Below are positions 1,516 through 64,000 of a stretch of 64,000 bases of DNA, piece after piece. The stretch comes from Aureimonas sp. AU20 (GTDB taxonomy: Bacteria > Pseudomonadota > Alphaproteobacteria > Rhizobiales > Rhizobiaceae). A program made the translations under genes and the position numbers. Where the stretch lies: NCBI RefSeq assembly GCF_001442755.1, contig NZ_CP006367.1, forward strand, positions 3,100,001-3,164,000, in the 5' to 3' direction. The first letter of the stretch is position 1, and the number at the start of each line of letters is the position of its first letter. The notes beneath the pieces are model-generated. The model was not told the DNA's origin and did not search any database. It saw nothing but the letters and a program-made list of their open reading frames with translations.

Positions 1516-2723
<1,208 letters not shown>

Positions 2724-2780
2724 GCCGCGCCCGCCATGGCTGCCCCTCGCCTGTCCCCTTCCGTCGGCCGGCTTGTGCCG

Positions 2781-5912: not shown

Positions 5913-5922
5913 GCCAGATAAG

Positions 5923-5997
5923 GCGGCCCGATCGGGCCGCTGCAACCTCTTCTCAACTCGGGCGGGTCCGCTGATTTCAGTGGGCCCGCTTTTCTTT
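5923..5997 (+). terminator. Tandem hairpins ending the fadB transcript
   Basis: A perfect 18-bp palindrome (5923-5940) is followed by an 8-bp stem, GCGGGTCC at 5962-5969 with GGGCCCGC at 5982-5989 (one G-U pair), then TTTTCTTT at 5990-5997. The second hairpin is a standard intrinsic terminator for the plus strand. Its loop contains the stop codon of the convergent yihY gene, so it may serve both genes. Confidence 0.75.
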
Positions 5998-7005: not shown

Positions 7006-7011
7006 GATCAT

Positions 7012-8075: not shown

Positions 8076-8148
8076 GGCCGAGCACCTGCGACATTCCAAC
8101 CGGAAGGCGCCGCGCTAGATCCCATCGTGGCGAAACCGAGGACCGAAC

Positions 8149-8925: not shown

Positions 8926-8960
8926 CACCCGCAAGAGGGCGGACGCTCTCAAGCGCTCAA

Positions 8961-8985
8961 GCCGGGGAAGCCCAGGCACCCCGGC
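8961..8985. terminator. Possible terminator between convergent genes
   Basis: A 7-bp stem GCCGGGG (8961-8967) with CCCCGGC (8979-8985) lies between the convergent nuclease-like and lysK genes. There is no T tract on either strand, so it is a weak candidate. Confidence 0.3.
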
Positions 8986-8997
8986 CCTGTCTCCAGT

Positions 8998-10659: not shown

Positions 10660-10761
10660 TCGTTCGGTTTCCTTCATGCAAGGGGTGTCGCGCGCCCGGC
10701 GCGCGTCGCTTTAGGCCGGTCTATGGGTCGCGCGCGGCCCTTCGTCAACAAACTCGGGCGG

Positions 10762-11643
10762 TCAGAAGGCGCTGATCGGGAAGTAGCGCAGGAGAAGCTC
10801 CGACAGGCGCTTGTCGCGCACGATGCGCCCGATCGCGTAGTCGAAGGCCGCTGCCAGCTGCGGATCGTCCTCGCGCACGGCGATCCCCAGCCCTTCCCCC
10901 AGGAACCGATCGGAGAGATAGGGGCCGCCGGCGAACTCGCAGCATTCCCCCGCCGCTTCGCTCGCCTGCCAGAAGGACAGGGCGACGCCGTCCCCGAACA
11001 GAGCTCGAACACGGTTGGAGCGCAGCGCCGCTTGCGCATCGGCGGGCGAATCGAAAGCGACGGCGCGCGCCTGCGGGAAGAAGGAGCGGAGCATCGCCTC
11101 GTGTGCGCTGCCGGCCACGACGCCGATGTCGGCGCCCGCCAGCCCCGTGCGCAGCGATTGCGAAAGGTCCGTCCCCCGCGCGACGAGAAAGCGGGCGGGG
11201 AAGCGCAGGAAGGGCTGCGTGAAGGCGAAGCGCGCGCGGTTCTCGGCCGCGATCGCCAGCCCGGCGACGACGGCGTCTCCCTCCCCGCTCTCCAAGGCGG
11301 AGGCGAGCTCGGCGAAGGGCCGCGCCTCGATCTGGCAGATCGCGGTGACGTTCAGCTCCTCGCAGATCGCGCGGGCGAGATCGACATGGAAACCCGTCAG
11401 CCGGCCGCGCTGGTCGAGAAAGTTGAACGGGGGATAATCGACCGCCGTGAGGAAGCGAATCCGTGTGCGGGCGGAAAGGTCGGGCTCGGCCAGACGCTGC
11501 GCCTGATCGCGGAAATTCGGTGTCTCGACGGCCTGCTGGGCGCTGGCCGGCTCGGCCAGAAGCAGCAGAGCAACCGACAGGTTGCGTAGGCGCGACAAGA
11601 CGCCGAAGTTTCGCGCGCCGGTTGGTTTCATCCTGCGCGTCAT
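10762..11643 (-). CDS. Periplasmic solute-binding protein, family 3
   Basis: About 293 residues with a signal peptide (hydrophobic NLSVALLLLAEPASA) and a family 3 solute-binding fold: RIRFLTAVDYPPFNFLDQRG, GFHVDLARAICEELN and the hinge region VVAGLAIAAENRARF. Such proteins deliver amino acids or other small polar solutes to an ABC transporter; no permease or ATPase gene is adjacent, so the partner and ligand are unknown. The start is uncertain: ATG 11643 has no clear ribosome site, and ATG 11631 has AGG directly in front. Only 38 bases separate it from the divergent glycosyltransferase gene. Confidence 0.8.
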   Translation of the reverse strand: MTRRMKPTGARNFGVLSRLRNLSVALLLLAEPASAQQAVETPNFRDQAQRLAEPDLSARTRIRFLTAVDYPPFNFLDQRGRLTGFHVDLARAICEELNVTAICQIEARPFAELASALESGEGDAVVAGLAIAAENRARFAFTQPFLRFPARFLVARGTDLSQSLRTGLAGADIGVVAGSAHEAMLRSFFPQARAVAFDSPADAQAALRSNRVRALFGDGVALSFWQASEAAGECCEFAGGPYLSDRFLGEGLGIAVREDDPQLAAAFDYAIGRIVRDKRLSELLLRYFPISAF

Positions 11644-11681
11644 TTCGCAACCATGAAGCGTTGTCCTTCGAGAGGTGACGC

Positions 11682-13703: not shown

Positions 13704-13921
13704 GGCCGGTCGTCGCCGCGCGAGACCTCCTCGTGCCAGCCGCCTTCTCGGTCCTGATAGACGATGCCTTCGGTTTCGCCGGCCAGTTCCTGTCGGGCCG
13801 AGGCGTCGCGCGCGGCGGCGAGCGCGTCGTCATGCGAGCGAAAGGTCTCGGAAAAAACGTCGCCGACCTTGTAGGCCCAGCCGCCATCGTGTTCAACGAC
13901 CTCGTAGCGGATGTTCGACAT
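13676..13921 (-). CDS. DUF2188 domain protein
   Basis: 81-residue soluble, acidic protein of the DUF2188 type: an N-terminal YEVVEHDGGWAYKVGD strand pair, a helix carrying SHDDALAAARDA and a terminal GIVYQDREGGWHEE strand. The family is widespread and of unknown function. The start is supported by GAGGAG nine bases upstream. Its 3' end overlaps the convergent glycosyltransferase by 28 bases. Confidence 0.8.
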   Translation of the reverse strand: MSNIRYEVVEHDGGWAYKVGDVFSETFRSHDDALAAARDASARQELAGETEGIVYQDREGGWHEEVSRGDDRPHAEVVDGD

Positions 13922-14390
13922 AGGGCTTGCTCCTCATTCTGCGTCTTCGCGACATAGGCATTGGGACGCTGTTCGCTTCGCGCAAAGCTAAATCACCAGT
14001 GCCGGAAGGCCAGCCCGTGCCGCTTGAATGAACGTTCAAGAATGCGCATCTCCAGACTGTGCCCTCAATCCGCGGTCTCTTGCCTGCGGATTTCGACAAC
14101 GGGCTCCGCGTCAAGATCGCACGCGATCATTTTTAAGGGCATAAAACTCGCCATTCCATGGTAAGTTAAGCGAAGAGGCGCGTAGTCGCGCTTCTTCCAG
14201 ATCCAATTCAGGCCTTTGCAGGAGGTTTTGGCCCGCAGCCGTGGGAACCTTCCTCCATGCCGCCCAGGGATCCACAACCTTCGGTAGGCGCCAGATTGGG
14301 TCGTGGCCAATATAATTAGGACTTAGAATCCAGTTTGGCACAGTTAGAACATGTGTTCATTCGGACAAACGCGAGACGAAAGCATCGAAC
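13922..14390. other. Intergenic region, lower G+C, possible gene remnant
   Basis: About 470 bases between the DUF2188 and Nudix genes with visibly lower G+C. Two overlapping minus-strand open frames (14111-14341 and 14065-14310) each contain protein-like stretches (LPKVVDPWAAWRKV in one, ACDLDAEPVVEIRRQ in the other), as if one short gene had been frameshifted, but neither has a convincing ribosome site and no family was recognised. The promoter of the Nudix gene must lie at the right end. Confidence 0.3.
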
Positions 14391-14810
14391 ATGAAAGATC
14401 GCAGGCAGATCGGCGCCATCGCCTATTCCCATGATGCCGAAGCGGGCCTGCGCATCCTTCTGGTGACGTCGCGCGAGACAGGCCGCTGGGTCATCCCGAA
14501 GGGCTGGCCGATGAAGTCCAAGCTGCCGCATCAGGCGGCGGCGCAGGAGGCTTTCGAGGAGGCGGGCGTCGAAGGGTCGATCGCAAAGAAGGCGGCCGGC
14601 ACCTATCGCTATCCCAAGACGCTGCGCAATGGCGACGTCGTGTCCTGCCGGGTCAAGGTCTATCCGATGGAGGTGAAGAAGCTCGCCTCGAAATGGCCCG
14701 AGGCGAGCGAGCGCAAGCGGCGCTGGTTCAGCACCGAGGACGCGGCCGCCGCCGTGGTGGAGCCGGATCTGGCCAAGATTTTCCTCTCGATCGGCCAGAT
14801 CGTCAGCTAA
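14391..14810 (+). CDS. Nudix hydrolase
   Basis: 139-residue single-domain Nudix protein. The Nudix box spans residues 38-60; QEAFEEAGV carries the metal-binding EExG glutamates, but the first conserved Glu of the box is Lys44 and the conserved Arg is Gln52. Closely similar GWPMK boxes occur in a diphosphoinositol-polyphosphate-phosphohydrolase-like subfamily common in Rhizobiales, so the deviation may be subfamily-specific rather than inactivating. The substrate, presumably a nucleoside diphosphate derivative, is unknown. It is convergent with fdhD. Confidence 0.85.
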   Translation: MKDRRQIGAIAYSHDAEAGLRILLVTSRETGRWVIPKGWPMKSKLPHQAAAQEAFEEAGVEGSIAKKAAGTYRYPKTLRNGDVVSCRVKVYPMEVKKLASKWPEASERKRRWFSTEDAAAAVVEPDLAKIFLSIGQIVS

Positions 14811-14870
14811 GGCGGCCGGGCGCGATAACGGGCGAGCCTGTTTCGCGTCCAAAAGGTCACGGGGTCGTCG

Positions 14871-15677
14871 CTAACCGACCGCGCCGAGAACTCGCTGCGG
14901 ATGAGTGGCGAGTTCGAAATCAGGGCCTCGCACCACGACGACGAGCGTCAGCCCCGCCACCTCAGCGCTGTCGAGGGCCAGCGCCGTCGGCGCCGAAACA
15001 GCCGCGAGCAACTCGCAGCCCATCACCGCGGCCTTTTGCACGAGTTCGACGGACACGCGGCTGGTCATCACCAGGAACCCCTCGCCCGCCGCCACGCCTT
15101 CCAAAGCGAGCCAGCCGGCCACCTTGTCGAGCGCGTTGTGGCGGCCGACATCCTCGCGCACCACCTGAATCGTGCCGTCCACCGCAGCGAAAGCCGCCGC
15201 ATGCACCGCCCTCGTGGCGGCGCCCAGCGTCTGGCGCGCGCCGAGATCGGCCACGGCCTTCACGATGGCCTCGGGCGCGACGCGCAGCCGATCGGCGAGT
15301 TCAGGCAATTCGGGCCGCGTTTGCTCCAGGCTCTCGACGCCGCACAATCCGCACCCCACCGGCCCCGTCATCAGCCGCCGACGCGCGACATAGCGGGCCG
15401 CAAGGCTCGGCGCCAGCCAGAGCCGGCAGTCGTAGCCGCTGTCCGTTTGCTCGATCTCGAGCGTTTCGATGTCGCCGATGGTGCTCACGATCCGCTCGCT
15501 GAGCGCGAGGCCGATGGCGAACTCGCGCAGGTCGGCCGGCGTCGCCATCATCACCGCATGGGTCGAGCCGTTGACCGAGAGGGCGACGGCCGTCTCGGCG
15601 GGCACGTTCCGCTCCTGCCTCACGAAATGGCCGTCGCGCCAAGCCAGAAGGGGGGCGGCTCGATAGGTCTCGGCCAA
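14871..15677 (-). CDS. fdhD: Formate dehydrogenase accessory sulfurtransferase FdhD
   Basis: FdhD carries sulfur from a cysteine desulfurase to the molybdenum cofactor of formate dehydrogenase. The diagnostic CGLCG motif is at residues 109-113, followed by the conserved EDVGRHNALDK and SRVSVELVQKA segments. I placed the start at TTG 15677 (268 residues) because GGGAG lies seven bases upstream and this matches the family length; an ATG at 15806 in the same frame would add 43 residues that look unlike the family. No formate dehydrogenase structural genes are in the window, although fdhD is often linked to them. Confidence 0.88.
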   Translation of the reverse strand: MAETYRAAPLLAWRDGHFVRQERNVPAETAVALSVNGSTHAVMMATPADLREFAIGLALSERIVSTIGDIETLEIEQTDSGYDCRLWLAPSLAARYVARRRLMTGPVGCGLCGVESLEQTRPELPELADRLRVAPEAIVKAVADLGARQTLGAATRAVHAAAFAAVDGTIQVVREDVGRHNALDKVAGWLALEGVAAGEGFLVMTSRVSVELVQKAAVMGCELLAAVSAPTALALDSAEVAGLTLVVVVRGPDFELATHPQRVLGAVG

Positions 15678-15928
15678 GGCATGTCTCCCGAACAAAGAAG
15701 GAAGGACAAAGTGAGCTTTTCTCGATCCGAGTCGAGGGACACCAGGGCAATCCGACCGTGCTGGAGAGCGCCGGGAACAACAGGTCTGGCCCGTCTCCTG
15801 CAACACTCCCCTCGGAACCAGCTGCCTGCTCTTCGTCTACACGAAGCACACGCGGATTTGTTATCGACTTTCACGAGAAACTGAACGAAGAACCCGGCAC
15901 GTCTCCTTCATCAAGGTTTGTCAAACCC

Positions 15929-16591
15929 GTGAGCGACTTTTTCTCAGCCGAACTGGCCGCCCTGTTCCAGGTTCTGTTCATCGATATCGTTCTGGCGGGC
16001 GACAATGCCGTGGTCGTGGGCCTTGCCGCAGCCGGCGTCGATCCGGCGATCCGCCGCAAGGTCATCTTTCTCGGCATTGCCGGCGCGGTGGTCCTGCGCA
16101 TCCTCTTCGCGCTCGTCGCGGTGCAGCTTCTGGCGATCGTCGGCCTGACGCTGGCCGGCGGCATCCTTCTGCTCTGGGTCTGCTGGAAGATGTTCCGCGA
16201 GATCCGCGAGAGCGACAGCGCCGACGAGGAAGCGGCCAGGATCGCGGCGGAAGGCAAGAAGCACAAGACCTTCGGCCAGGCGCTGTTCCAGATCATCATC
16301 GCCGACGTGTCCATGTCGCTCGACAACGTGCTGGCGGTGGCCGGCGCGGCGCGCGACCACCTGACGGTTCTAGTGATCGGTCTCCTGATCTCGGTCGTGC
16401 TTATGGGCGCGGCCGCCACATTGATCGCCAATCTCCTGCATAAGTACCGCTGGATCGCCTGGGTGGGCCTTGCCGTCATCTTCTTCGTGGCGCTTCGCAT
16501 GATCTACCACGGGTGGGACGACGTGGCCTGCCATGTCCAGACGCTGTCGAGCTACTGCTCGGGCATCGCCGTTGAAGGAGCCGCCCATTGA
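15929..16591 (+). CDS. TerC/YjbE family integral membrane protein
   Basis: About 220 residues with some seven membrane helices and the paired family motifs [15 protein letters not shown] (Asp25-Asn26) and [14 protein letters not shown], whose acidic residues lie in the membrane and are thought to bind metal. TerC/YjbE relatives have been linked to manganese export and to metalation of secreted proteins; the substrate here is not known. The start is taken as GTG 15929, where homology begins; an upstream ATG at 15758 would add 57 residues without membrane or family character. The stop overlaps the start of queF. Confidence 0.85.
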
Positions 16592-17055
16592 CCTCAGAAT
16601 CGACCGAAAACCTGACGCAGCTTGGCCGGGACACGCGCCCGACCGCCAGCCCCGAGGAAGCCGTTCTGGAAACGGTCCCCTTCGCGCGGCGCACCGACCC
16701 CGGCGCGGTGGTGCGTTTTACCTGCCCCGAATTTACCTCGCTCTGCCCGGTGACGGGCCAGCCGGACTTCGCCCATATTGTCATCGACTACGTGCCGAAT
16801 GAGCGACTGGTGGAATCGAAATCGCTTAAGCTGTTTCTGACGAGCTTCCGCAACCACGGCGCCTTTCACGAGGACTGCACTGTGATGATCGCGCAGCGCA
16901 TCGTGGAGGCGACGCGCCCGCTCTGGCTGCGGATCGGTGGCTATTGGTATCCGCGCGGAGGCATTCCGATCGACGTGTTCTGGCAGACGGGCGCACCCCC
17001 TGCCGGCGTGTTCCTCCCCGACCAGGGCGCCCCGACCTATCGCGGGCGCGGCTGA
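16588..17055 (+). CDS. queF: NADPH-dependent 7-cyano-7-deazaguanine (preQ0) reductase
   Basis: 155-residue unimodular QueF that reduces preQ0 to preQ1 in queuosine biosynthesis. Cys53 in [11 protein letters not shown] is the residue that forms the thioimide with substrate, Asp60 is the proton donor, and ESKSLKLF (76-83) is the NADPH-binding QueF signature. The start is TTG at 16588, overlapping the upstream stop as TTGA, with a strong AAGGAG seven bases before it, so translation is coupled to the TerC-like gene. Other queuosine genes are not in the window. Confidence 0.93.
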
Positions 17056-17127
17056 TCGAACACAGCGTCCCGGTTGATCGCGACCCCGGCTCGGCCTAAT
17101 GCCGATGCCAGAAAAGGGGAAAGCCTC

Positions 17128-18258
17128 ATGCAACTGGACCGAATCGAAGACGCCATCGAGGCCATCGCGGCGGGCGAGCTCGTCGTGGTGGTCGACGACA
17201 CCGACCGGGAGAACGAAGGCGATCTGATCATGGCCGCCGGCAAGGCGACGCCGGAGAAGATGGCCTTCATGATCCGCCACACGAGCGGCATTCTCTGCGT
17301 GCCCATGACGGGCGAGCGCGCGGTGCAGTTGAACCTGCCGCCCATGGTCGCCAACAATCTCGACCCGATGCGCACGGCCTTCACCGTTTCGGTGGACTAC
17401 AAGGTCGGCATGACCACGGGCATCTCGGCCGAGGAGCGCGCCAACACCGCGCGCGCCCTCGTCAACGACAATGCGATGGGCGCCGACTTCATCCGTCCGG
17501 GCCACATGTTCCCGCTGATCGGCCGCGAAGGTGGCGTCCTGACGCGCTCCGGCCACACGGAAGCGGGCGTCGATCTAGCCAAGCTGGCGGGCCTCGCCCC
17601 GGCCGGTATCCTTGCCGAGATCGTCAACGACGATGGGACGGTGAAGCGCCTTCCCGAACTCTTGGTATTCGCCAAGGAGCATGGCCTGCGGATCATCTCG
17701 ATCGAGGACCTCATCTCCTATCGCATCCGCCGCGAAAGCTTCGTCAAGAGCGTGCGCGACGAGGACATGACGATCGGCGGACTCAAGGGCCGCGTGAAGA
17801 TCTACCAGACGCCTTTCGACCCCATTCAGCATGTCGCAGTGGTGTTCGGGAACGTGCGCGGCGCGCGCAACGTGCCGACGCGCATCCACCGCGAGCAGCC
17901 GGTGGTCGATCTCTTCGGCCGCGCCTCGGGCGGCAAGCCTTGGGTGGACGCCGCGCTGGCACCGATCCGCAAGGCGGGGAGCGGCATTCTCATGCTGCTT
18001 CGCACGGCCAATGTGGACGAGTTCGAGACGGAGGCGCAGGCGCGCATCGAGCCGAATGCGGCGGGTGTCGCCGATGGCGAGAAACACGCCAGCGCCCGCG
18101 CCCGCTCGCAGCGCTGGCGCGAGGTGGGCGTCGGCGCGCAGATTCTGCGCGATCTCGGCGTCGATTCGATCGCGGTGATGTCGACCACCGAGCGCGACTA
18201 TGTCGGTCTCACCGGCTTCGGGATTGAGATCGGCGACACCATCCTGCTGGAAGACTGA
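17128..18258 (+). CDS. ribB: 3,4-dihydroxy-2-butanone-4-phosphate synthase with degenerate GTP-cyclohydrolase-II-like domain
   Basis: 376 residues. The N-terminal domain (about 1-205) is a complete DHBP synthase of riboflavin synthesis, with DRENEGD at 26-32 and HTEAGVDL. The C-terminal domain (about 210-376) has the GTP cyclohydrolase II fold pattern, but the zinc-binding Cys triplet and the RQEGRGIG segment are missing; VPTRIHREQPVVDLFG replaces them. It therefore should not make the pyrimidine precursor, and a separate RibA is needed. Such RibBX proteins are common in proteobacteria. The start follows AAAGGGGA by eight bases. No FMN riboswitch is seen in the 72-base upstream gap. Confidence 0.92.
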   Translation: MQLDRIEDAIEAIAAGELVVVVDDTDRENEGDLIMAAGKATPEKMAFMIRHTSGILCVPMTGERAVQLNLPPMVANNLDPMRTAFTVSVDYKVGMTTGISAEERANTARALVNDNAMGADFIRPGHMFPLIGREGGVLTRSGHTEAGVDLAKLAGLAPAGILAEIVNDDGTVKRLPELLVFAKEHGLRIISIEDLISYRIRRESFVKSVRDEDMTIGGLKGRVKIYQTPFDPIQHVAVVFGNVRGARNVPTRIHREQPVVDLFGRASGGKPWVDAALAPIRKAGSGILMLLRTANVDEFETEAQARIEPNAAGVADGEKHASARARSQRWREVGVGAQILRDLGVDSIAVMSTTERDYVGLTGFGIEIGDTILLED

Positions 18259-55157: not shown

Positions 55158-55364
55158 TCAGCGGATTTCGGTCTGGGCCTGGAAACGGCCGAGAATAGCG
55201 ATCACAGCGCCCAGCGCCGAGGCGCCGGCCGCGAGCGCTTCGGCCAGTTGGTCTTGCGCTCCGCCGTCGAGCTGGAAGCCGGCGAGGGCGGCAAGGCTGG
55301 CGCAAAGCGCCACGAGCCCACCCCAGACGGTCTTCGATTTCCACCATTGTTTCGTCTCGATCAT
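55158..55364 (-). CDS. Holin-like small membrane protein
   Basis: 68 residues with a short charged N-terminus (METKQWWKSK pattern), two hydrophobic segments (about 13-30 and 43-60) and a small loop. The SKTVWGGLVALCASLAAL start and AVIAILGRF end recall small holin-like proteins found near phage endolysin genes. A strong AAGGAG lies seven bases before ATG 55364. It follows the last GTA gene after 40 bases on the same strand, which suggests a role in lysis or release of particles. Similarity is from pattern only, and a general small membrane protein remains possible. Confidence 0.6.
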   Translation of the reverse strand: MIETKQWWKSKTVWGGLVALCASLAALAGFQLDGGAQDQLAEALAAGASALGAVIAILGRFQAQTEIR

Positions 55365-55404
55365 GCTGGTCTCCTTGGGGTTTGGATGGATTGGGTTTGG
55401 ATGG

Positions 55405-58400
55405 TCAAGGTCGAACCGCCAGCGCGATTCGCCCGGCCGTGCCGGCTCCCACGCTGGCGCTCATCTGCGAGACGGCGATGTCGAGGCGCGTGCCGGCGGG
55501 GCCGAGCACGGAGCGCCAGGTCGATGCGGCAACGCTCAGCCGCGTCGCCGCTGCGGGAAGATCGAGCGAGCCGCCTTCCAGCGTCGACAGCGTGACGCGA
55601 TAGGTCTCGTTCTCCTCGCCAAGCGGCGGGTCGGCCTCGTCCCACGCGTCCAACACAGCGCGGCTGCGGCGCAACCAGGCGATGGTCAGCGTCCCATCGT
55701 CTTCGAAACGGCCCGAGAGATGAGCCGGCGACAAAGGCAGCAGCGCGCGGCGGCCGAGCGCGGCCGTCTGCCGGTCGGCCGCCTCGTCGTCGAGCCCACG
55801 CCCGGAGGGAACCGCAAGCCAAGGCAGCTCCGCGCCGAGCCCAGTGAGCGGGGCGGGTATGGCCACGCACGCTCCGTCGAGCAGCACGAAAGGCGCACCG
55901 GCCGCTTGCCCCGCCCGCATGGCGTCCTCAGTGCCGCCCAGCGCGCGCACCAAGCCTGCAAGCTGGAAGCGCCCCGGCGCGACCTCCTCGGCATCCCGAA
56001 ACTGCACGATCTCCCAGGCGCCCGATGTCGAGCGGATCGCCGCTCGGTTGGCGCCCGCCAGAAGCGCCTCTTCCGGCACCGAGGCGAGCGCCCCGCGAAC
56101 CAGATCGATCTCGATCCGGTTGGCCCGGTCCCACATACCCTCCCGCCCCGCTCCGAGCGGCTCCGTGAGGAAGCCGATGGTGGCGGGGCGGGTCACCCGA
56201 TCGAAAGGCTGGAAGCCGGAGCCGGTCGGCGAAGCGAAGAGGTCGAGCGGCACGAAGGGCTTAGCGGTCGCCGCCAGAAAGGCGCCTCCCCCGCCCTCGA
56301 AGGATGGCAGGTCCATCCAGAGCGCCACCGGCCGCGAGGCGATAAGGGGCTGCGCGGTGGCTGGCCCGGATAGCAAGCCCGCCTCCACGGGCCGCAGCGC
56401 GGCCGCGCGAACGCGCCGTGCCTCCACCCGCCGCGTCAAGCCGTCCTCGATCCGCTCGATACGCCAGACGCCGGGCACATCCGGCGCGCGCACGAGGTCG
56501 CCCGGTGCGAGCGAAAGCTCGGCCGGCGAAAGGCCGAAGCTCGCCGTCTCGCGCTCGCCCCCTTCCCGATCCAAGAGTTCCGCGGCAAAGCGCCTCGCCT
56601 GTCCCTCCGCCAGGATCACCGGCAGGTCCACCGCCGTCTGCCGTGGCCGGTCGGCGTCGCCCATCGCCGCGTCCGCCACCGCCGCCTGATAGGCGCGGGA
56701 CGGATCGCTGAAACCCACCAGAACCTCCTCCACCGTCTCCACGGGTTCGGAACGGCGGACCTCGAAGCGCGGTGCGTCGTCATCCTCGGCCAGGGCTTCC
56801 AACGCGAATGGGTCGGTGCGCCGCGCAAGCGAGCGAAAGCGCAGCTTCCCGCCCTCCGCGCGCACCTCGGTTCCCGTCAGGCGTAGAAGCTCTTCCAGTT
56901 CGGCGCGTGCCGATCCCGGACCCGACACGAGATAGCCGCCGAGATCGGCCTCGACCTCCACAGTATCGCCAGAGTCGAACTCATGGTCGGCCAGCAGCTG
57001 ATCGATCAGCCCATCCAGCGGCGCGCGGCCGAGCCGCCCCGTGAGCCAGTGCCCGCGCTCCCAATTGGCGCCATCCGCCCAGATCTCGGCCCGGTCGGGA
57101 AAGGCCGGCGCCGGCCGCGCGTCCCAGCACCAGAGATGGATCGCCTCCGCCGGCACCATGCGCCCGCCGTAAAGCGGCGAGACCGGATTGTCCGCTTCGC
57201 GGAAGCCCGGCGAGGCCGGGTCCCAATGGCCGAGATGCGCCTCGAGGAAGCGGCGCTGCGCCAGATCGTCCCGCCCGCCATTGGAAAAGTACGGCCAGTG
57301 GCTTTCGGAGGATTTCGGATCATAGAAGACGTTCGGCTGGTTCGCCCCTTTGTCGATCGCAGGGCAGCCGAGCTCGGTGAACCAGATCGGCTTCGACATC
57401 GGCACCCAGCCCGTCGGCTGCGCGCTCTCCACCCCGCCGTGCCGCTCGAAATGCCGGTTCGCCCACCAGTTCTTCAGGTCCTTGGGCCGAAACACCCAGG
57501 GCTTGCCCAGCCCGTCCGTGATCGGGCTTCGCCGCCCGGCCCGCCGCGCCGCCTCGCTTTCATAGTGCCAGTCGAAACCTTCGCCGGCGCCGATCGATGC
57601 GCGTAGCGCCTCCCGGTCGTAGGCCGACGCCGCCTCGCTCGCCTCCCCTTCGTCCCGCCAGTCGGCCAGCGGCAGGTAGTTGTCGATGCCCACCGCCCCG
57701 ATGTCCGGCGAGGCCCAAAGTGGGTCGAGATGGTAGAAGACGTCGTTCGACCCATCGTGCGGCTGATGGCCGAAATACTCGCTCCAGTCGGCGGCATAGG
57801 TAAGGAGCGTGTCAGGCAGCAGCGCCTTCACGTCCCGCGCCAGCGCCACCAGCGCCTCCACGACCGGAAAGCGCCCGGCCTCGTCGCGGATCGCGGTCAG
57901 CCCGCGCATTTCCGAGCCGATCACGAAGGCGTCGACGCCCCCTGCGAGCTTGGCCAGATGCGCGGCGTGAAGGATCATGCGGCGGTAGGACCATTCGGCC
58001 GGTCCGCCATAGCGCACCTCCCCGCCTACGATGGCAAAGTCGGCAGTACGGGCGGAACCGACGAAGCGCAGGATATCCGTCCGCGCCTGCGCGCTCCGAT
58101 CGGCCGAGCCCGCCCGGCCCGGAGCCTCGTCGAGCGTCATGCGGCCGCGCCAGGGATAGGGCGCCTGCTCCGCGCCGCCATACGGGTCCGGCAACGCGTT
58201 GCCGGCCGGCATGTCCATCATCAGAAACGGATAGAGCGTCACCCGAAGGCCGCGCGCCCGAAGCTGGGCGATGGCGCGCAGGACGCCGGCGTCCGAGGGC
58301 GTGCCGCCATAGGCCGGTGCACCGTTCACCTGGCTGACGAGATGCGCCTGGCCGCGCCCTACGCCGCCCCCGCGCCAGACGATCGTCTCGTCGCGCGCCC

Positions 58401-59283
58401 ACACCTCGACGCCCGGCCGCACGCTGGCATGGCCCACGCGAAGGTCGTCCGCGAACCAGCTCACCACCAGCGCCGCGCGCTCCAGGCGCGGGCAGAGCGC
58501 CGTCAGCTCCTCCAGCGACGCGGCAAAATCGCTCGCGCCGTGCAGCATGTTGCGGTTCGGAAGCCGGTCTGCCCCCGGCCCGATGCGCTCGCGCACCGGC
58601 AGCGGGTCGAGCCCGTGCTCCGTCGCGCCGGGAATGATCGTCACCGCCCGCAGGCCCGCTTCCAGCGCACCCACGGGGCGGATCACCTCGCAGCTGATCT
58701 GCGGAATGCGGTTGCCCCAGCGCTCCAGCGCCAGATGCTCGAAGACGAGATAGGCGAGGCCGCGATAGGCCGGCGCGTTGCCCCGCCCCTGCCGAGCTTC
58801 GATCAGGGGATCGGGCTCCTGATCCTCACCGCCCTTATGAAGGCGGACATTGACGAGCGACAGGTCGAGTTCCTCACCGTCGGCCCAGATGCGCCGGGCA
58901 TGGGCGATCGGCCCTTCGCAGAGGCCGATCGCGACATTGCCGAAATAGCTGTAGGTCGTGACCTCGCTACGCCCTCGCCCGGCGCCGCCCTTGCCGCCGC
59001 TGCGCTCCGTGGTCGCCGCTTCCTCGAAACGCGTCGTCCAGATCACCTGCCCCGCGATCCGCGCCGTGCCGTAGAGCCGGGCGACGCCCGCGCCCTCGTC
59101 GGCCTCCATGATGCGGCTGCCGGACAGGCGCGGCCCCTGCCGCTTCGTGCGCGCGCCGAACAGACGGTCGTCGATAGCGGAACCGCCGAGCGCGCCGATG
59201 GCCCGGCCGGCCATGGCGCCGAAAGGGCCGCCGACGAGCCCGCCCAAGGCGCCGCCCACGGCCTGAAGAAGGATCGTCGCCAT
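55405..59283 (-). CDS. GTA baseplate multidomain protein (gp15, megatron)
   Basis: 1292-residue tail-tip protein, the largest gene in the window. An N-terminal Gly/Ala-rich hydrophobic stretch is followed by YSYFGNVAIGLCEGPIAHARRIWADGEELD of the phage tail family, a GTA TIM-barrel-like domain at about 440-740 (ADWSEYFGHQPHDGSND, WFTELGCPAIDKG) and a C-terminal putative tail domain. In the Rhodobacter capsulatus particle the corresponding protein forms the baseplate that contacts and penetrates the host envelope. Length matches that protein. ATG 59283 follows GGAG by seven bases; three bases separate it from gp14. Confidence 0.93.
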   Translation of the reverse strand: MATILLQAVGGALGGLVGGPFGAMAGRAIGALGGSAIDDRLFGARTKRQGPRLSGSRIMEADEGAGVARLYGTARIAGQVIWTTRFEEAATTERSGGKGGAGRGRSEVTTYSYFGNVAIGLCEGPIAHARRIWADGEELDLSLVNVRLHKGGEDQEPDPLIEARQGRGNAPAYRGLAYLVFEHLALERWGNRIPQISCEVIRPVGALEAGLRAVTIIPGATEHGLDPLPVRERIGPGADRLPNRNMLHGASDFAASLEELTALCPRLERAALVVSWFADDLRVGHASVRPGVEVWARDETIVWRGGGVGRGQAHLVSQVNGAPAYGGTPSDAGVLRAIAQLRARGLRVTLYPFLMMDMPAGNALPDPYGGAEQAPYPWRGRMTLDEAPGRAGSADRSAQARTDILRFVGSARTADFAIVGGEVRYGGPAEWSYRRMILHAAHLAKLAGGVDAFVIGSEMRGLTAIRDEAGRFPVVEALVALARDVKALLPDTLLTYAADWSEYFGHQPHDGSNDVFYHLDPLWASPDIGAVGIDNYLPLADWRDEGEASEAASAYDREALRASIGAGEGFDWHYESEAARRAGRRSPITDGLGKPWVFRPKDLKNWWANRHFERHGGVESAQPTGWVPMSKPIWFTELGCPAIDKGANQPNVFYDPKSSESHWPYFSNGGRDDLAQRRFLEAHLGHWDPASPGFREADNPVSPLYGGRMVPAEAIHLWCWDARPAPAFPDRAEIWADGANWERGHWLTGRLGRAPLDGLIDQLLADHEFDSGDTVEVEADLGGYLVSGPGSARAELEELLRLTGTEVRAEGGKLRFRSLARRTDPFALEALAEDDDAPRFEVRRSEPVETVEEVLVGFSDPSRAYQAAVADAAMGDADRPRQTAVDLPVILAEGQARRFAAELLDREGGERETASFGLSPAELSLAPGDLVRAPDVPGVWRIERIEDGLTRRVEARRVRAAALRPVEAGLLSGPATAQPLIASRPVALWMDLPSFEGGGGAFLAATAKPFVPLDLFASPTGSGFQPFDRVTRPATIGFLTEPLGAGREGMWDRANRIEIDLVRGALASVPEEALLAGANRAAIRSTSGAWEIVQFRDAEEVAPGRFQLAGLVRALGGTEDAMRAGQAAGAPFVLLDGACVAIPAPLTGLGAELPWLAVPSGRGLDDEAADRQTAALGRRALLPLSPAHLSGRFEDDGTLTIAWLRRSRAVLDAWDEADPPLGEENETYRVTLSTLEGGSLDLPAAATRLSVAASTWRSVLGPAGTRLDIAVSQMSASVGAGTAGRIALAVRP

Positions 59284-59286
59284 GCC

Positions 59287-59733
59287 TCAGCTCCGGTCGA
59301 TGAATTGAAAGACACCGGCGATCCGCCCGGCCCAGCCCGGCGTCAGCACCGAGGAAACGACGGACGCGCCCTCATAAGCGTGGATCAGGCGCAGGGTCCG
59401 ACCCAAGCCCCCGTCCGGCGCGTCGAGAATCCCGCAATGCTTGGCCGGCCGTCCCTCGCGCCAGCGAAACAGAACGAGGTCGCCCGGCGCCGCCTCGCCC
59501 GGTTCGATCGGCCGGAAAAGCCGCTGCGCGGCATCGCACATCGGATCGCCCGATCCGGTCTCGGCCCAGTCGGCGCTATAGGGGCCGGGCGTTTCCGGCT
59601 CGGCGCCGTAGACTTCGCGCCAGACCCCGCGCACGAGGCCGAGACAATCGCAGCCGACGCCCGCGCGGCTGCCCTGGTGGCGATAGGGCGTGCCGAGAAA
59701 ACCGCGTGCCGCGGCCAGCACAAGCGCGCGCAT
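59287..59733 (-). CDS. GTA tail cell-wall peptidase, NlpC/P60 (gp14)
   Basis: 148-residue NlpC/P60-type peptidase with Cys30 in GVGCDCLGLVRGVWRE and His99 in AKHCGIL; the third polar residue should lie in the following strand. In GTA tails it is thought to open peptidoglycan during DNA delivery. ATG 59733 overlaps the gp13 stop as TGATG; a GTG one codon upstream is also possible. Confidence 0.93.
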   Translation of the reverse strand: MRALVLAAARGFLGTPYRHQGSRAGVGCDCLGLVRGVWREVYGAEPETPGPYSADWAETGSGDPMCDAAQRLFRPIEPGEAAPGDLVLFRWREGRPAKHCGILDAPDGGLGRTLRLIHAYEGASVVSSVLTPGWAGRIAGVFQFIDRS

Positions 59734-60620
59734 CACGGCACCACCGGCGAGCCGTCATGCCGCCCGTCGCTCTTGGCGATGCCGAGCGCGCTGTCGGCGC
59801 CCGGCAGATGCGGGAAGCCGCGAAAGTTGACGCCGTTGCCGAACCGGTCGCGGCAGGTCGTAAACGAGCGGTCGCAACCCGCCACGAGAGCCACCTGCCC
59901 CCCCGCCTCCGGCAGGCGCACGGGCCCCCGATGCAGGAACAATCGCAGCGTTCCCACCTCCTCCCCATCCGCCATTCCGCGCAGCGGCAGCGGCGCCGAG
60001 CCGTCCGCCAGGACCAGCCGGCCCTCCGCAAACAAGCCTTGTTCGCCGCGCGCGATCGCCTGAACCGGGCGAACCACGATCACCGCGTCCGAGGCGGACA
60101 CGACCACGACCGACCGTGTCCAGGGTGCCAGATCGACCCCGCAGCGCCGATCTCCAAGCACCGCATCGCAGCGGCGGCGATAGGTCCGGCCGCGCTGGCG
60201 CTCGAGCCGGGCGGCCAAGCCGCGCAGTTCGGCGCGAAAGCCCCCCGGCCCTCGCGTCACCTCGCCGAGATCGGCGACCTCCATCAGAACGTGATGGCTC
60301 GGCTCGCGCCAATCGACGCGGAAGCTTTCGACGCTGGAGCCGTCGAACAGGCCGCGTTCCACATCCGTCTCGCGAATCGCCTCGTCGGAAAAGCCGCCGT
60401 CCACCGCCTCGGTCCCGGCGCCCAACCCGCGCGCCGCTTCGCTCTCGCCGGCCGTCCAGCCGCTTCGGGCGCGAAACAGCGTTCCGGCGAAGCGGAGATC
60501 CTCGTCATGGTCCGTGAAGCCGAACACGGCGCCGTCGCGCCGCGTCAGCCGCCAGGCGCTGGCAAGCGTCGTCGCCGGCTGCTTCAGCCGCGCCTGGAAC
60601 TCAGAGGACAAGGCTCTCAT
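59733..60620 (-). CDS. GTA tail hub protein, DUF2163 (gp13)
   Basis: 295-residue baseplate hub with an N-terminal DUF2163 domain (RRDGAVFGFTDHDEDLRFAG) and a C-terminal domain ending in FGNGVNFRGFPHLPG. It has exactly four Cys at 151, 160, 249 and 256 (RRRC, RRCGVD, AGCDRSFTTCRDRF), a pattern consistent with the iron-sulfur cluster reported for the Rhodobacter hub. Overlaps gp12 by four bases. Confidence 0.92.
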   Translation of the reverse strand: MRALSSEFQARLKQPATTLASAWRLTRRDGAVFGFTDHDEDLRFAGTLFRARSGWTAGESEAARGLGAGTEAVDGGFSDEAIRETDVERGLFDGSSVESFRVDWREPSHHVLMEVADLGEVTRGPGGFRAELRGLAARLERQRGRTYRRRCDAVLGDRRCGVDLAPWTRSVVVVSASDAVIVVRPVQAIARGEQGLFAEGRLVLADGSAPLPLRGMADGEEVGTLRLFLHRGPVRLPEAGGQVALVAGCDRSFTTCRDRFGNGVNFRGFPHLPGADSALGIAKSDGRHDGSPVVP

Positions 60621-61243
60621 GGCCGGATCTCCACCAGCGGGATGGACGGGATGTCGCCGGCCTCGAAGGCGGCGACGTTGACAGCGAGATGATCCATGTC
60701 GAAGCGCACCGGCACGTCGAACTCGAAACCGGCCGTCACCGCGCTGCCGACCGGCGGCGCGGCGGCGAAGGTCAGGATCCCGGTCGTGGCGTCGATGTCG
60801 GCGTCGGTCACGACGCCGTTCACCGCCGCCCGCACCGTGCCGGCCAGCGGCTTGCGGATCGGCCTGACATAGGCGTCCGCGCCGGTGCCGTAGCGTTTGA
60901 CGAGCTGGAAGCCGCGCGCCGTCCCGTCGCCGGTGCCGAGCGGCTGATCCAGAGCGGTCACAGGCTTGCCCCAGCGCGCCGAGGCAGCGTCGAACGGATC
61001 GCGGAAGCGAAAGCCGACGAGCCGCCCACGCCGCGCCTCGAAGAACTCGAGCACGCTGACGAGATCGGCTAGGCTCTTGACGCCCGAGCCCGCGTCGTAG
61101 CGCCGCCAGGAATGGCGCGTGCGCTGGTTGCGGTTCTCGTAGCCCGTGGAAAGGCGCACGATGTCGGTGCGCCGCTCCGGCCCGCCCGAAGTGCCGAAGG
61201 CGACGGCCAGCGGAAAGCGTTCCTCGCTGAAGGAGGCGACCAT
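60617..61243 (-). CDS. GTA distal tail protein, DUF2460 (gp12)
   Basis: 208-residue DUF2460 protein: FPLAVAFGTSGGPERRTDIV, YENRNQRTRHSWRRYDAG, FFEARRGRLVGFRFRDPFD. It forms the ring between tail tube and baseplate. ATG 61243 begins the homology, with AGAGGGG upstream and only one base between it and the gp11 stop; a longer frame upstream is Arg-rich and unlike the family. Confidence 0.93.
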   Translation of the reverse strand: MVASFSEERFPLAVAFGTSGGPERRTDIVRLSTGYENRNQRTRHSWRRYDAGSGVKSLADLVSVLEFFEARRGRLVGFRFRDPFDAASARWGKPVTALDQPLGTGDGTARGFQLVKRYGTGADAYVRPIRKPLAGTVRAAVNGVVTDADIDATTGILTFAAAPPVGSAVTAGFEFDVPVRFDMDHLAVNVAAFEAGDIPSIPLVEIRP

Positions 61244-61244
61244 C

Positions 61245-61838
61245 TCAAAGGCCCCTCTGGCCGCGCAGGGCGGCCCGCGCCAGCATCGCCTGGATCTGCG
61301 TTTCCGCGCGGCGGAAGCTCTGCGCGTCGGGCGTCGAAACGTTGAAGGTGACCGAGGACCCGCCGCGCCGCCCGCCGTCCACCGCAACGCCGAGCGAGCC
61401 GTCCGCGCCGCGCTTCAACGGCATGATCGCCTCCGCGCCCGCCTCGCCCATCAGACCGACCTGCCCGCCGGCCGGAAAGAAGCTCGGCGCGCGCACCACG
61501 CCGCCCTTGGCGAAGGGAACGACGCCCGGTGCCGGCTGCCCGCCCGCGCCCTGCCCGCCCGCGCCCCCCGTCAGGCCGGACAGCAACGAACCGACGACGC
61601 TTCCGGCCAGATTCGACAATGGCTTGAGCGCCGCGTCGAGGGCGATGGTCGAGATGCGGCTGCCAAGCCCCTTGAGCACGGTGTCGAGGGAGCGCCCGCC
61701 GCCGGCCGCCCCCTTCAGCGCGGCCGTCATCGCGGCGCCGAAACGGTCGGCGCGCGTGGAAAGGTCGGTCAAGGCGCGCTCGAAGCCGCTCGTGTCGGCT
61801 TCCACGGCAATGCGCATCGTGTCCACGGACGGGTCCAT
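61245..61838 (-). CDS. GTA tail tape measure protein (gp11)
   Basis: 197-residue short tape measure protein. It begins with a DTMRIAVEADTSGFERALTDL helix segment, has a central Gly/Ala-rich hydrophobic stretch (LAGSVVGSLLSGLTGG) and the phage tape measure hallmark FAKGGVVRAPSFFPAGGQVG followed by GLMGEAGAEAIMPL. The small size is usual for GTAs and implies a short tail. ATG 61838 has GGAG six bases upstream. Confidence 0.88.
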   Translation of the reverse strand: MDPSVDTMRIAVEADTSGFERALTDLSTRADRFGAAMTAALKGAAGGGRSLDTVLKGLGSRISTIALDAALKPLSNLAGSVVGSLLSGLTGGAGGQGAGGQPAPGVVPFAKGGVVRAPSFFPAGGQVGLMGEAGAEAIMPLKRGADGSLGVAVDGGRRGGSSVTFNVSTPDAQSFRRAETQIQAMLARAALRGQRGL

Positions 61839-61839
61839 G

Positions 61840-62031
61840 TCATCTCCGATCGGGATAAAGTTGAAGAAGCTCGCCAAGCCGCGCGCGGCTCGGGCCGCCT
61901 CCGCGTGCGCGAGAGAGGGGCGACGCCAAAGCGGCCAGCTCGCGCGGGCTCAAGGCCCAGAAGTCTTTGGGGCTGAGACGAAGCGTGCCGAAGCAGAGCG
62001 CCATGGCCTCGTCCCAGGGAAAGGCCGCCAC
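61840..62031 (-). CDS. GTA tail assembly chaperone, DUF2376-like (gp10.1)
   Basis: 63 residues: FPWDEAMALCFGTLRLSPKDFWALSPRELAAL followed by an Arg-rich tail. The FPWDEAM...LRLSPxxFWxxxPREL pattern is the small phage tail assembly chaperone found next to gp10 in alphaproteobacterial GTAs. Start placed at GTG 62031, which follows AAGGAAG by five bases; a TTG at 62070 overlapping the gp10 stop is an alternative. One base separates it from gp11. Confidence 0.82.
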   Translation of the reverse strand: MAAFPWDEAMALCFGTLRLSPKDFWALSPRELAALASPLSRARGGGPSRARLGELLQLYPDRR

Positions 62032-62066
62032 GCCGGCTTCCTTGGCCGGGGCCGGCGCGGCGGCGC

Positions 62067-62405
62067 TCAAGGGCGCGGCGGGGCGGCCTCCTCGCCCGTG
62101 CCGAAGGCCGCTTCCAGAAGCTCGGCCGCCAGCGCCGCCGCGCCGGCCGCGCCCCGGTCGAAGCGCATGGCGGCGACCGCCTCGTCGCTCGCCGTCTCGC
62201 CCGCGCCGCGCAGGCCCGCTGCGATGATCCGGGTCAGATCGCGCGCTGAAAGCCGGCCCGAGCCGAAACGCTGGGCGAGCGCGGCGATGTCCTCCAGCGC
62301 GAAAGCGTCCTCCAGTTCGGCCAGCGCCCCCAGCGTCAAACAAAGCCGGTGCTCGCGCCCGTCTATCATCGCGGCCACCTCGCCGCGTCGCCGGTTCGCG
62401 CCCAT
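62067..62405 (-). CDS. GTA tail assembly chaperone gp10
   Basis: 112-residue gene-transfer-agent gp10 family protein: an N-terminal small beta part (DGREHRLCLTLGALAELEDAF), then GSGRLSARDLTRIIAAGLRG and an Ala-rich helical end. It is thought to chaperone the tape measure during tail assembly together with gp10.1. The ATG overlaps the gp9 stop as TAATG. Confidence 0.9.
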   Translation of the reverse strand: MGANRRRGEVAAMIDGREHRLCLTLGALAELEDAFALEDIAALAQRFGSGRLSARDLTRIIAAGLRGAGETASDEAVAAMRFDRGAAGAAALAAELLEAAFGTGEEAAPPRP

Positions 62406-62818
62406 TAGATGGCCTCGAAGGTCAGCGCGCCGGCCGATTCCAGCGTCATCTCGAAGCTGACCTCGCCATTGTGCTCGCCGGCATATTCCAGCGCCGTGAT
62501 CTGAAACGGCCCGCTGACACGCCCAAAATCCGGGATCACTGCCTGGAAGGGCGCGATCCGCCCTTCGAAGAAGAGCTTGCGCACTGCCATGTCGGAGGCC
62601 GCGTCCTTGAAGATGCCGGCGCCCGACAGCGCCGCGCGCTGCACGCCCGCCCCGCCCAGAAGCTCGCGCCAGCGCCCGGCGCTGTCGCTGTTGGTCACGT
62701 CCACCGTCTCTGCGTTGAAGGAGATGCGGCGCGAGCGAAGCCCCGCCACCGTCTGAAACACGCCGCTCGTTTCCGCGTCGAGCTTCAGGAGAAAGTCCTT
62801 GCCCTTTTGCGCGCCCAT
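62405..62818 (-). CDS. GTA major tail tube protein, TP901-1 type (gp9)
   Basis: 137-residue tail tube protein with KGKDFLLKLD at the start, RRISFNAETVDVTNSDSAGRW in the middle and YAGEHNGEVSFEMTLESAG at the end, all typical of the phage TP901-1 major tail family. ATG 62818 follows GGAGG by six bases. The 81 bases upstream contain a terminator-like hairpin. Confidence 0.93.
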   Translation of the reverse strand: MGAQKGKDFLLKLDAETSGVFQTVAGLRSRRISFNAETVDVTNSDSAGRWRELLGGAGVQRAALSGAGIFKDAASDMAVRKLFFEGRIAPFQAVIPDFGRVSGPFQITALEYAGEHNGEVSFEMTLESAGALTFEAI

Positions 62819-62842
62819 GGCCGCCTCCAAAATTTTGCGCAA

Positions 62843-62870
62843 CAAAAAAGGGCGGCCCGAAAGCCGCCCT
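62843..62870 (-). terminator. Terminator-like hairpin inside the GTA operon
   Basis: On the minus strand an 8-bp stem AGGGCGGC / GCCGCCCT (62870-62863 and 62856-62849) with a six-base loop is followed directly by TTTTTTG. It lies 30 bases after the gp8 stop and 25 bases before gp9, and looks like a complete intrinsic terminator. Confidence 0.75.
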
Positions 62871-62899
62871 CGTGTCCGATCTGAAAATTGAGTGCTGGC

Positions 62900-63313
62900 T
62901 TAGGAAGCCAGCGGCTCCGTCACCGCGCGAAAGCGCAGGATACCGTGATAGGCTGGCGAGTCCGGCTCCTGCCGCGCCTCGGCGAATTGCAGCCGGAGGT
63001 TCACCAGACGGTGCGTCTCAAGCGGCAGGCTCGCGTCGTTCAGTCGGCCCGCGATCTTGTCCATGATCTCGTAGGTTTCCTGCTTCGAGCCGCCCTTGGC
63101 CCAGACATGCAGGGTCAGGATATGCTCGGCCCCGTCCTCCGTGCCGGTGGACCAGTCGATCACCGCCGTCCGCCCAAGCGTCAGATAGGGAAAACTCGCC
63201 CGCTCGGGCACGCGGTCGAAAATCTTCGGGCCGCCGAGAAGCTTGGTCAGCGCCGCGTCGGCCGTCAGCGCGCCGAGGATGGTCGTCTGCAATTCCGCCG
63301 AGGGGTGCGACAT
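62900..63313 (-). CDS. GTA tail terminator protein, DUF3168 (gp8)
   Basis: 137-residue DUF3168 protein that closes the tail tube at the head side: ELQTTILGALTADAALTKLLG, FDRVPERASFPYLTLG, LTLHVWAKGGSKQETYEIMD. Length and order in the cluster are normal. The ribosome site (AAAGG) is 11 bases away and weak. An AT-rich palindrome lies 29-58 bases before the ATG. Confidence 0.92.
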   Translation of the reverse strand: MSHPSAELQTTILGALTADAALTKLLGGPKIFDRVPERASFPYLTLGRTAVIDWSTGTEDGAEHILTLHVWAKGGSKQETYEIMDKIAGRLNDASLPLETHRLVNLRLQFAEARQEPDSPAYHGILRFRAVTEPLAS

Positions 63314-63341
63314 GCTCTGAGAACCTTTCCATGCCTGCGAT

Positions 63342-63371
63342 CACGTCTGATACATCATATAATATGACGTG
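63342..63371 (-). promoter_or_regulatory. AT-rich nested palindrome upstream of gp8
   Basis: TCATAT-A-ATATGA (63355-63367) is a perfect 13-base odd palindrome nested inside a wider inverted repeat CACGTC (63342-63347) and GACGTG (63366-63371). It is an AT-rich island in very GC-rich DNA and lies in the only sizeable gap before gp8. It may be an operator or an internal promoter (the minus strand contains TATTAT). No known consensus was matched. Confidence 0.4.
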
Positions 63372-63375
63372 AGCA

Positions 63376-63558
63376 TTACGGGCGCCATTCCCGATTCGTT
63401 AAAATTGCGTGAGGATTTTCCCGGCCCGGGTCGCTTTCGCGAAGACGAGCCGCCTCCTCCCGTTGGTCTAAGCGCTCGGCAAGCGCCTCGACCACCCGCC
63501 GTCGCATCTCCTCGCGAAGCGCGGCCTTGTCGAAACGCACTTGCACCAAGCCGATCAT
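63376..63558 (-). CDS. Unrecognised 60-residue protein inside the GTA cluster
   Basis: 60 residues, highly charged and helical (RFDKAALREEMRRRVVEALAERL and on), with no membrane segment or Cys. A near-perfect GAGGAGG ribosome site and a four-base overlap with gp7 (ATGA at 63555-63558) support real translation. The Rhodobacter GTA has no gene between gp7 and gp8 as I remember it; an HK97 gp10-like minor protein occupies this place in many phages, but similarity to it is not evident. It may be a shortened remnant of such a protein or a coiled-coil assembly factor. Confidence 0.65.
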   Translation of the reverse strand: MIGLVQVRFDKAALREEMRRRVVEALAERLDQREEAARLRESDPGRENPHAILTNREWRP

Positions 63559-63887
63559 GCTTCCTCCTCACAGCGGCAGACGAGCCAGCGCCCGGTCTCG
63601 TCGGGGTCGTGCAGGCTGCGGATCACGAGTCGCCGCGCTCCCAGGCGAAACGCCATTCCCCGCACGAGGCCCGCCCGAGCCCGCAGGGTGACGCGATGCG
63701 TGATCGCGCCGATCCGCTGCCCGAGCCGCTCCTCGACGATCGCGGTCAGAGGCTCGACGCGAACCGAGGTCTCGCCCACCTCCACCCAGTTCTCCCGGGC
63801 TCCGCCCGAACCGTCCGTCACAAGGTCGTTGCGCTCGATCGCCGCCCGCTTGGTCAGAAGGCCGGGGTCCAGAAACAGGAGCGCCAT
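63555..63887 (-). CDS. GTA head-tail adaptor protein (gp7)
   Basis: 110-residue phage head closure (stopper) protein: LLTKRAAIERNDLVTDGSGGARENWVEVGE, then RVTLRARAGLVRGMAFRLGAR and a final HDPDETGRWLVCRCEE. This is the SPP1 gp16/HK97 head-tail adaptor pattern. It starts one base after the gp6 stop. Confidence 0.9.
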   Translation of the reverse strand: MALLFLDPGLLTKRAAIERNDLVTDGSGGARENWVEVGETSVRVEPLTAIVEERLGQRIGAITHRVTLRARAGLVRGMAFRLGARRLVIRSLHDPDETGRWLVCRCEEEA

Positions 63888-63888
63888 G

Positions 63889-64000
63889 TCAAAGCCTCGG
63901 CGCCCGGAAGGGAGCGATCAGCGCGCGCGCCAGCGGCGGCATGAAAGCCGGCTGCAGCGCCGGGCCGACCGTGCCGCGCGTTTCGAACGCGGCCGCCGCC
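63889..64000 (-). CDS. GTA head-tail connector (gp6), partial
   Basis: Only the last 36 codons are in the window; the gene continues beyond the right edge. The end AFMPPLARALIAPFRAPRL matches the typical C-terminus of the gp6-like head-tail connector, where a short helix precedes a terminal APxRxxRL. Assignment rests on this and on its place before gp7. Confidence 0.7.
   Translation of the reverse strand, partial: AAAAFETRGTVGPALQPAFMPPLARALIAPFRAPRL

Follow-up and report, generated by a model that had tools for sequence, protein, structure and literature searches.

Clusters related to the gene transfer agent (GTA) of Rhodobacter capsulatus, RcGTA, of the Rhodogtaviriformidae, are common in alphaproteobacteria (PMC6821227; statements credited here to published papers follow the excerpts of them that were available). 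RcGTA has its holin and endolysin encoded apart from the structural cluster (PMC6209664, PMC8601537, PMC3423380), and its activator GafA acts via the omega subunit of RNA polymerase (PMC9638019); as far as the excerpt of PMC11150451 goes, GafA elements have not been mapped at nucleotide resolution in R. capsulatus. The agent of Caulobacter crescentus, CcGTA, has a split activator, GafY/GafZ (PMC9632790, PMC11150451); GafY activates both operons together with IHF, a putative GafZ element lies between the -35 and -10 of the cluster promoter, and there is evidence that GafZ is an anti-terminator (PMC11150451). The excerpt of PMC13236601 gives no holin-endolysin for CcGTA and assigns lysis to LypABC. 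The VSH-1 GTA of Brachyspira hyodysenteriae is unrelated and belongs to another family (PMC9662315). How particles leave the cell in Hyphomicrobiales, and where GafA-type activators bind, are questions to which the literature searched gave no answer. The locus described here bears on both. It occupies the last 8.8 kb, on the minus strand, of a 64,000-base window (bases 3100001-3164000 of contig C1 of the 5.21-Mb genome of Aureimonas sp. AU20), starts at 55158, and continues beyond the window's edge. It is very probably an intact, vertically inherited GTA locus of the RcGTA type, for which control by GafY/GafZ, the making of particles and their release by a holin are proposed. No paper naming both Aureimonas and gene transfer agents was found in the open-licence PMC literature.

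By its gene families and their order, the locus is an RcGTA-type GTA, a kind of element already known. It shares with RcGTA the gp1-gp15 order, the short tape measure, the megatron and the tail peptidase, as well as an activator homologous to GafA, here split into two genes; unlike RcGTA, it has a small extra gene between gp7 and gp8, and a holin of another family closes its head-tail cluster. A first-pass annotation had recognised a tail half at 55158..64000, which was borne out by protein families, minus-strand gene order and matches to solved chains. Extending the sequence rightward, as that annotation had advised, brought in the remainder of gp6, the capsid (gp5), the protease (gp4), gp3.5 (DUF6107), the portal (gp3), the terminase (gp2) and a gp1-like open reading frame (ORF) that matches no Pfam or PHROG family and takes its name from position. 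Every cluster ORF, in the tail half and in the head genes upstream, is open with one terminal stop. Among solved structures, RcGTA chains are the top matches of the capsid (2e-93), the tail tube (6tba_5A, E 6.5e-55) and the megatron (6tba_8A, 6.5e-260, aligned over residues 1-1288); a major head protein (9gyi, 1e-44) and another megatron protein (8gtc_M, 9e-207) match less strongly, and the same comparison found no solved relative of the terminase. The megatron gene, gp15 (55405..59283, minus strand, as are all the genes below), encodes a baseplate protein that also scores 1592 bits against NF048004 (GTA_megatron; cut-off 800) and carries GTA_TIM/Rcc01698_C. Among the best 80 of 552 relatives, the closest named ones of the capsid, at 91 and 93 % identity, come from two genomes of Aureimonas ureilytica, ahead of other Aureimonas and Aurantimonadaceae.

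The genes and their surroundings also look like those of a retained host locus. In pairwise comparison with relatives L004 and L005, dN/dS was 0.05-0.45 across 17 GTA genes, 0.10-0.19 for the holin gene and 0.09-0.10 for a flanking transglycosylase-transpeptidase gene; the 18 genes tested (17 GTA genes plus the holin gene) are under purifying selection. On one side lie ccmF, ccmE, ccmI and a response regulator with a histidine kinase, and on the other a CxxCxxCC protein, the transglycosylase-transpeptidase, and then family-less ORFs and a peptidoglycan-binding protein. Among the flank ORFs scanned, which were the larger ones, there was no integrase and no replication or lysogeny gene. Of the 58 relatives with at least 4 kb of sequence before gp2, 50 have the transglycosylase-transpeptidase gene there, on the opposite strand and under 6 kb from gp2, and the locus is therefore argued to be fixed and vertically inherited; the response regulator is present in six of nine relatives with at least 1.1 kb past the gp15 match. 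It is because of the solved-chain and NCBIfam matches, the dN/dS values, the flank genes and the conserved host neighbour that the locus is read as a vertically inherited GTA. The first-pass annotation had likewise taken it for a domesticated particle rather than a prophage, and had named an integrase beside the head genes, or a broken terminase or capsid gene, as grounds for abandoning that view; the scanned flanks hold no integrase and both ORFs are open.

The last gene of the cluster (55158-55364) was left unnamed in that annotation, whose named genes all lie where it had placed them. The top PHROG matches of its 68-aa product are holin families (34682, E 7e-8), Pfam gives only DUF7940, below cut-off, and the protein has two hydrophobic helices, with hydropathy peaks at residues 16-32 and 43-59. 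It is holin-like and, judged by these features, probably helps particles out of the cell. A tblastn search of phage records with this protein, at E 0.1, returned nothing, though MW091529.1 there holds a homologue of 41 % identity; unlike tblastn, profile-based searches did recover relatives. With a profile built from 11 members, ten of them from relatives' loci, a homologue was found near the end of gp15 (from 60 bp ahead of it to 500 bp past it) in 43 of the 48 relatives with at least 300 bp of sequence there, and in 33 of 38 once the loci that seeded the profile were excluded; at L057 the match falls 206 bp before the estimated end of gp15, and that end is taken as misjudged. Across 151 genomes of the family Rhizobiaceae in the GTDB sense, some of which may be the same as the named relatives, 114 have GTA_TIM, 115 a holin match and 105 both (Fisher p 3e-14, genome kinship ignored); in 101 of the 114 the holin gene shares the strand of GTA_TIM and stands 1.4-1.9 kb downstream, and ten genomes have a holin match without GTA_TIM. 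Class-wide, the profile matched nine of 192 sampled genomes and GTA_holin_3TM (PF11351) 49 of them. Among the 22 class genomes with GTA_TIM, the present holin occurs in two, this genome and G158 (where it is 2.3 kb downstream of the GTA_TIM match), and GTA_holin_3TM in eight; in G182 and G190 the latter shares the strand of GTA_TIM, at 2.4-2.7 kb downstream; these positions were compared by eye between searches.

Relatives of the holin also occur in viral collections, where 320 IMG/VR loci encode one. Of the 80 best, 74 also encode a gp15 homologue and are therefore taken to be GTA clusters classed as viral; a further one, L172, has GTA-like head genes, and the other five have neither. In four of these five GTA-free viral contigs the homologue is close to a gene of an endolysin family: an Amidase_2 gene ends at most 20 bp before it in L130 and L160, and L109 and L139 have an M15 peptidase gene some 0.55 kb beyond it, while its neighbour in the fifth, L117, is DUF5675. 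Amidase_2 and M15 are both common endolysin families. UniRef gives the name 'Holin' to seven of 120 listed homologues. No mention of a holin inside a GTA cluster of this order was found among those open-licence PMC papers that the literature searches displayed. The holin encoded at IMG/VR locus L107 is identical to that of the window.

The activator that the annotation had proposed to look for as gafA is present as a gafY/gafZ pair. DUF6456, the domain of GafA and GafZ (PMC9765227, PMC9638019), has one match in the genome (E 1e-45), 11 kb upstream of gp1. The gene is preceded by a DnaA-domain-like gene and, in the authors' own reading, adjoined by a sufE-like ORF, which is the Hyphomicrobiales arrangement given in PMC9638019. 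Upstream of gp1, the aligned leaders of Aurantimonadaceae read ATAGGAAAATAGTC, one base, TTGACnnCGTnACGGT, seven bases and TAGGGT, that is, a composite promoter of a box, a -35, CGTnACGGT inside the spacer and TAGGGT, and the pattern is exact in this genome. Its 16-nt core, with at most two mismatches and less than 1.5 kb upstream of gp2, is found at 63 of 71 loci (27 of the 28 defining loci and 36 of 43 others). The 30-nt pattern, with at most three mismatches, is found in 87 of the 151 family genomes, the reversed control giving 0; 81 of these 87 have GTA_TIM, and in 65 the pattern shares strand and contig with GTA_TIM and precedes it by 0.9-34 kb (median 12.8 kb). There is one copy in 85 of the 87, seven in G268 and three in G330, the extra copies possibly belonging to accessory GTA operons or extra clusters. 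A CtrA-type site is TTAA-N7-TTAA. The annotation had suggested looking for such sites, and none was found in the 389 bp upstream of gp1.

Between promoter and gene, the leader of this locus contains a strong hairpin followed by TTTTGCTTT, ending about 20 nt before the first ATG of gp1 (folding z -4.75; 0 of 200 shuffles). A strict, author-defined terminator rule is satisfied by 15 of 28 Aurantimonadaceae leaders and five of 36 others, against a background of 17/320 in shuffles and 17/320 in random segments, and a folding z below -2 is seen in 15 of the 28. RNAalifold, run on a gappy leader alignment of 28 rows, gave weak support: seven pairs, every one of them backed by one or more double changes, at an energy of -3.2. 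The terminator hairpin was also considered as a family-wide trait, which is not supported, only seven of 36 longer leaders from outside Aurantimonadaceae satisfying the strict rule. On the opposite strand the box contains ACTAT, and ACTATG is the site at which the GafY element of Caulobacter was mutated (PMC11150451), which is a lead, not a test. The composite promoter and the predicted leader hairpin fit activation by GafY plus anti-termination by GafZ. Compared with this locus, CcGTA also has an element between the -35 and -10 of the cluster promoter, but its terminator is found past the first gene rather than in the leader (PMC11150451).

In the mechanism proposed, GafY and GafZ would appear in few cells, as inferred from Caulobacter and R. 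capsulatus. GafY would bind the box just upstream of the -35 and recruit polymerase, and GafZ would load in the -35/-10 spacer, at CGTnACGGT, and take RNA polymerase past the early leader hairpin, a scheme held to have slightly the better of an even chance. If expressed, the head-tail operon would very probably yield short-tailed particles, packaging a few kb of host DNA. The holin, encoded last in the operon and made alongside the tail genes, would probably permeabilise the inner membrane, a peptidoglycan hydrolase then freeing the particles. A generalisation to the whole family is put forward tentatively, at just short of an even chance: its RcGTA-type agents would have their own two-helix release holin and a signature promoter, with GafY at the -35 and GafZ in the spacer like lambda Q, and in Aurantimonadaceae a leader terminator would make the operon GafZ-dependent.

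Head-tail genes of this kind are also those of phages, and the locus might be a prophage with a mere likeness to a GTA, either an ordinary inducible one or a recent remnant. Homologous head-tail genes are found in Rhizobium phage 16-3 and in vB_MseS-P1, which is an inducible integrating prophage (PMC11409702), IMG/VR classes such stretches as viruses (the 74 loci above among them), and the runner-up among the solved matches of gp15, 8gtc_M, is another megatron protein. The absence of an integrase from the scanned flanks, the host gene conserved on one side, the short tape measure and the presence of gafYZ nevertheless argue the other way, as do the phage-record capsids, which are at most 45 % identical save for two records at 63 and 59 %, the former being itself a GTA region; a prophage origin of this sort is accordingly given very little credence. 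Rhizoviticin, the F-type tailocin of Allorhizobium vitis, likewise combines phage-derived tail genes with a holin-like gene, but it has no head genes and keeps early phage genes (PMC10811719), whereas capsid, portal and terminase are all present here in a full head module. The locus might also be a decayed GTA, its capacity to make particles lost, a view to which the failure to find a GTA endolysin (by a GH108 search run without a positive control, and by GH24) lends something; open ORFs, dN/dS well below 1, an exact promoter pattern and the presence of gafYZ make decay unlikely.

Turning from the identity of this intact RcGTA-type locus to its proposed release and control, the results that weigh against them are best taken together. 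For the holin, none was found after gp15 in L026, L027, L031 (Jiella) and L032 (a Fulvimarina metagenome-assembled genome), and of the 114 family genomes with GTA_TIM, nine lack a holin match and in four the match is elsewhere. It also stands without a known partner, because PF05838 (GH108) was not found in this genome, in a search without a positive control, and the one GH24 lysozyme recovered lies within a stretch that looks like a prophage. The last gene might thus encode a tail or membrane accessory protein, with release through another lysis system such as LypABC, which CcGTA uses; that its top matches are holin families, that it has two hydrophobic helices and that Amidase_2 or M15 genes lie beside or within 0.6 kb of its homologue in four of five GTA-free viral contigs make this a minority possibility of modest weight. 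For the promoter, 33 of the 114 GTA_TIM-positive genomes lack the pattern at three mismatches, the box before gafY, some 57 nt from its likely start, carries three mismatches, and the CcGTA GafY element is far upstream with an IHF site between (PMC11150451), whereas the box here abuts the -35. The strict terminator rule holds in only 20 of 64 leaders, the count of seven among 36 longer leaders was made without a shuffled control, and a consensus scan for promoters and terminators, with stricter -10 and T-run rules, found neither in this leader. It is a substantial possibility, if rated somewhat below an even chance, that the conserved sequence is just a sigma-70 promoter plus an activator site and that neither GafZ nor the hairpin acts in anti-termination in this order: the hairpin is not general outside Aurantimonadaceae, and the GafA of R. 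capsulatus works through omega. Such a promoter would have no need of the conserved CGTnACGGT in its spacer, and in Caulobacter the putative GafZ element occupies the same place, with evidence of terminator read-through (PMC11150451).

Neither this lysis arrangement nor this promoter architecture was found described in the literature, and both look new. If release proceeds as proposed, it would be a third lysis arrangement among RcGTA-type agents, beside the unlinked holin-endolysin of RcGTA and the LypABC of Caulobacter. A holin-like gene at one place and a 30-nt signature without control matches make the questions of exit and of activator binding testable in many laboratory species, and the holin slot and promoter signature may also help separate GTA clusters from prophages.

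The remaining genes of the tail module follow gp15 in the expected order. Next to it are gp14 (59287..59736), an NlpC/P60 tail peptidase (PF00877, TIGR02219), gp13 (59733..60620), the baseplate hub (PF09931, PF09356, TIGR02218), and gp12 (60617..61252; start not fixed), the distal tail protein (PF09343, TIGR02217). The short tape measure of 210 aa, gp11 (61245..61877), has no Pfam match and meets NF058675 (RcGTA_tape) at E 1e-40 but with 139.7 bits, below the curated cut-off of 220; the tail assembly chaperone gp10.1 (61840..62085; start not fixed) matches PF09550 (E 9e-15) and is also under its NCBIfam cut-off (47.7 vs 56.1). Further along are gp10 (62067..62405; PF11836, GTA-gp10, E 3e-30), the tail tube gp9 (62405..62845; PF06199, in addition to its solved match), the tail terminator gp8 (62900..63313; PF11367) and the head-closure gene gp7 (63555..63887; PF05521). 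The head-tail connector gp6 (PF05135) runs from 63889 to 64449 in the contig, only its first 112 bases, 63889..64000, being inside the window, a correction to the first-pass claim that all the named genes were intact there.

The small extra gene (63376..63558), which overlaps the gp7 stop, is an open ORF, as the annotation had it, and ORFs of similar size stand in the gp7-gp8 slot of many relatives that have a gap there; it matched no Pfam or PHROG family above curated cut-off. The idea that it is a remnant HK97-gp10 was rejected, there being no Pfam or PHROG support. Its counterparts in Aurantimonadaceae and at many Mesorhizobium-like loci are poorly conserved, and there is no space for it at 14 loci (many Rhizobium/Agrobacterium-like), where gp7 overlaps gp8.

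We take PF11351 and PF05838 (GH108) to be the families of the RcGTA lysis pair, holin and endolysin respectively. Neither was found in this genome, although PF11351 does match the 49 class genomes above; the PF05838 search had no positive control. Such a pair is not a defining feature; CcGTA too is without a holin-endolysin in the excerpt of PMC13236601. Searches for GH108 and GH24 identified no GTA endolysin. The GH24 lysozyme (G000:C1:2722443-2722817) was considered for that role and rejected, being located in a prophage-like lysis cassette. That stretch (L105, 3800-8900; about 2.72 Mb on the contig) holds the GH24 endolysin with a hydrophobic N-terminus, a 1230-aa fibre-like gene and spanin-like genes, and is read by the authors as a prophage lysis cassette from gene layout without a family search; a two-mismatch box near the GH24 gene falls within an opposite-strand gene and is at control level (two besides the GTA's own, control three). 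The peptidoglycan-binding protein (L002:16701-17552) was also set aside as an endolysin, with no hydrolase domain found, and is probably a host gene.

Two observations on other genomes complete the comparison. The sewage-derived GenBank phage record MW091529.1 ('Bacteriophage sp. 103231'; 1-18183) is in fact a GTA cluster; it has the same holin slot, and its host-type two-component pair, 81 and 54 % identical to that of the window, is annotated as two 'antibiotic efflux' proteins. In G194, G198, G223, G274, G326 and G331 there are only C-terminal GTA_TIM fragments, and their GTA clusters are probably internally deleted; three of the six (G198, G223 and G274) have the promoter pattern, at 0.9-1.1 kb upstream of the fragment.

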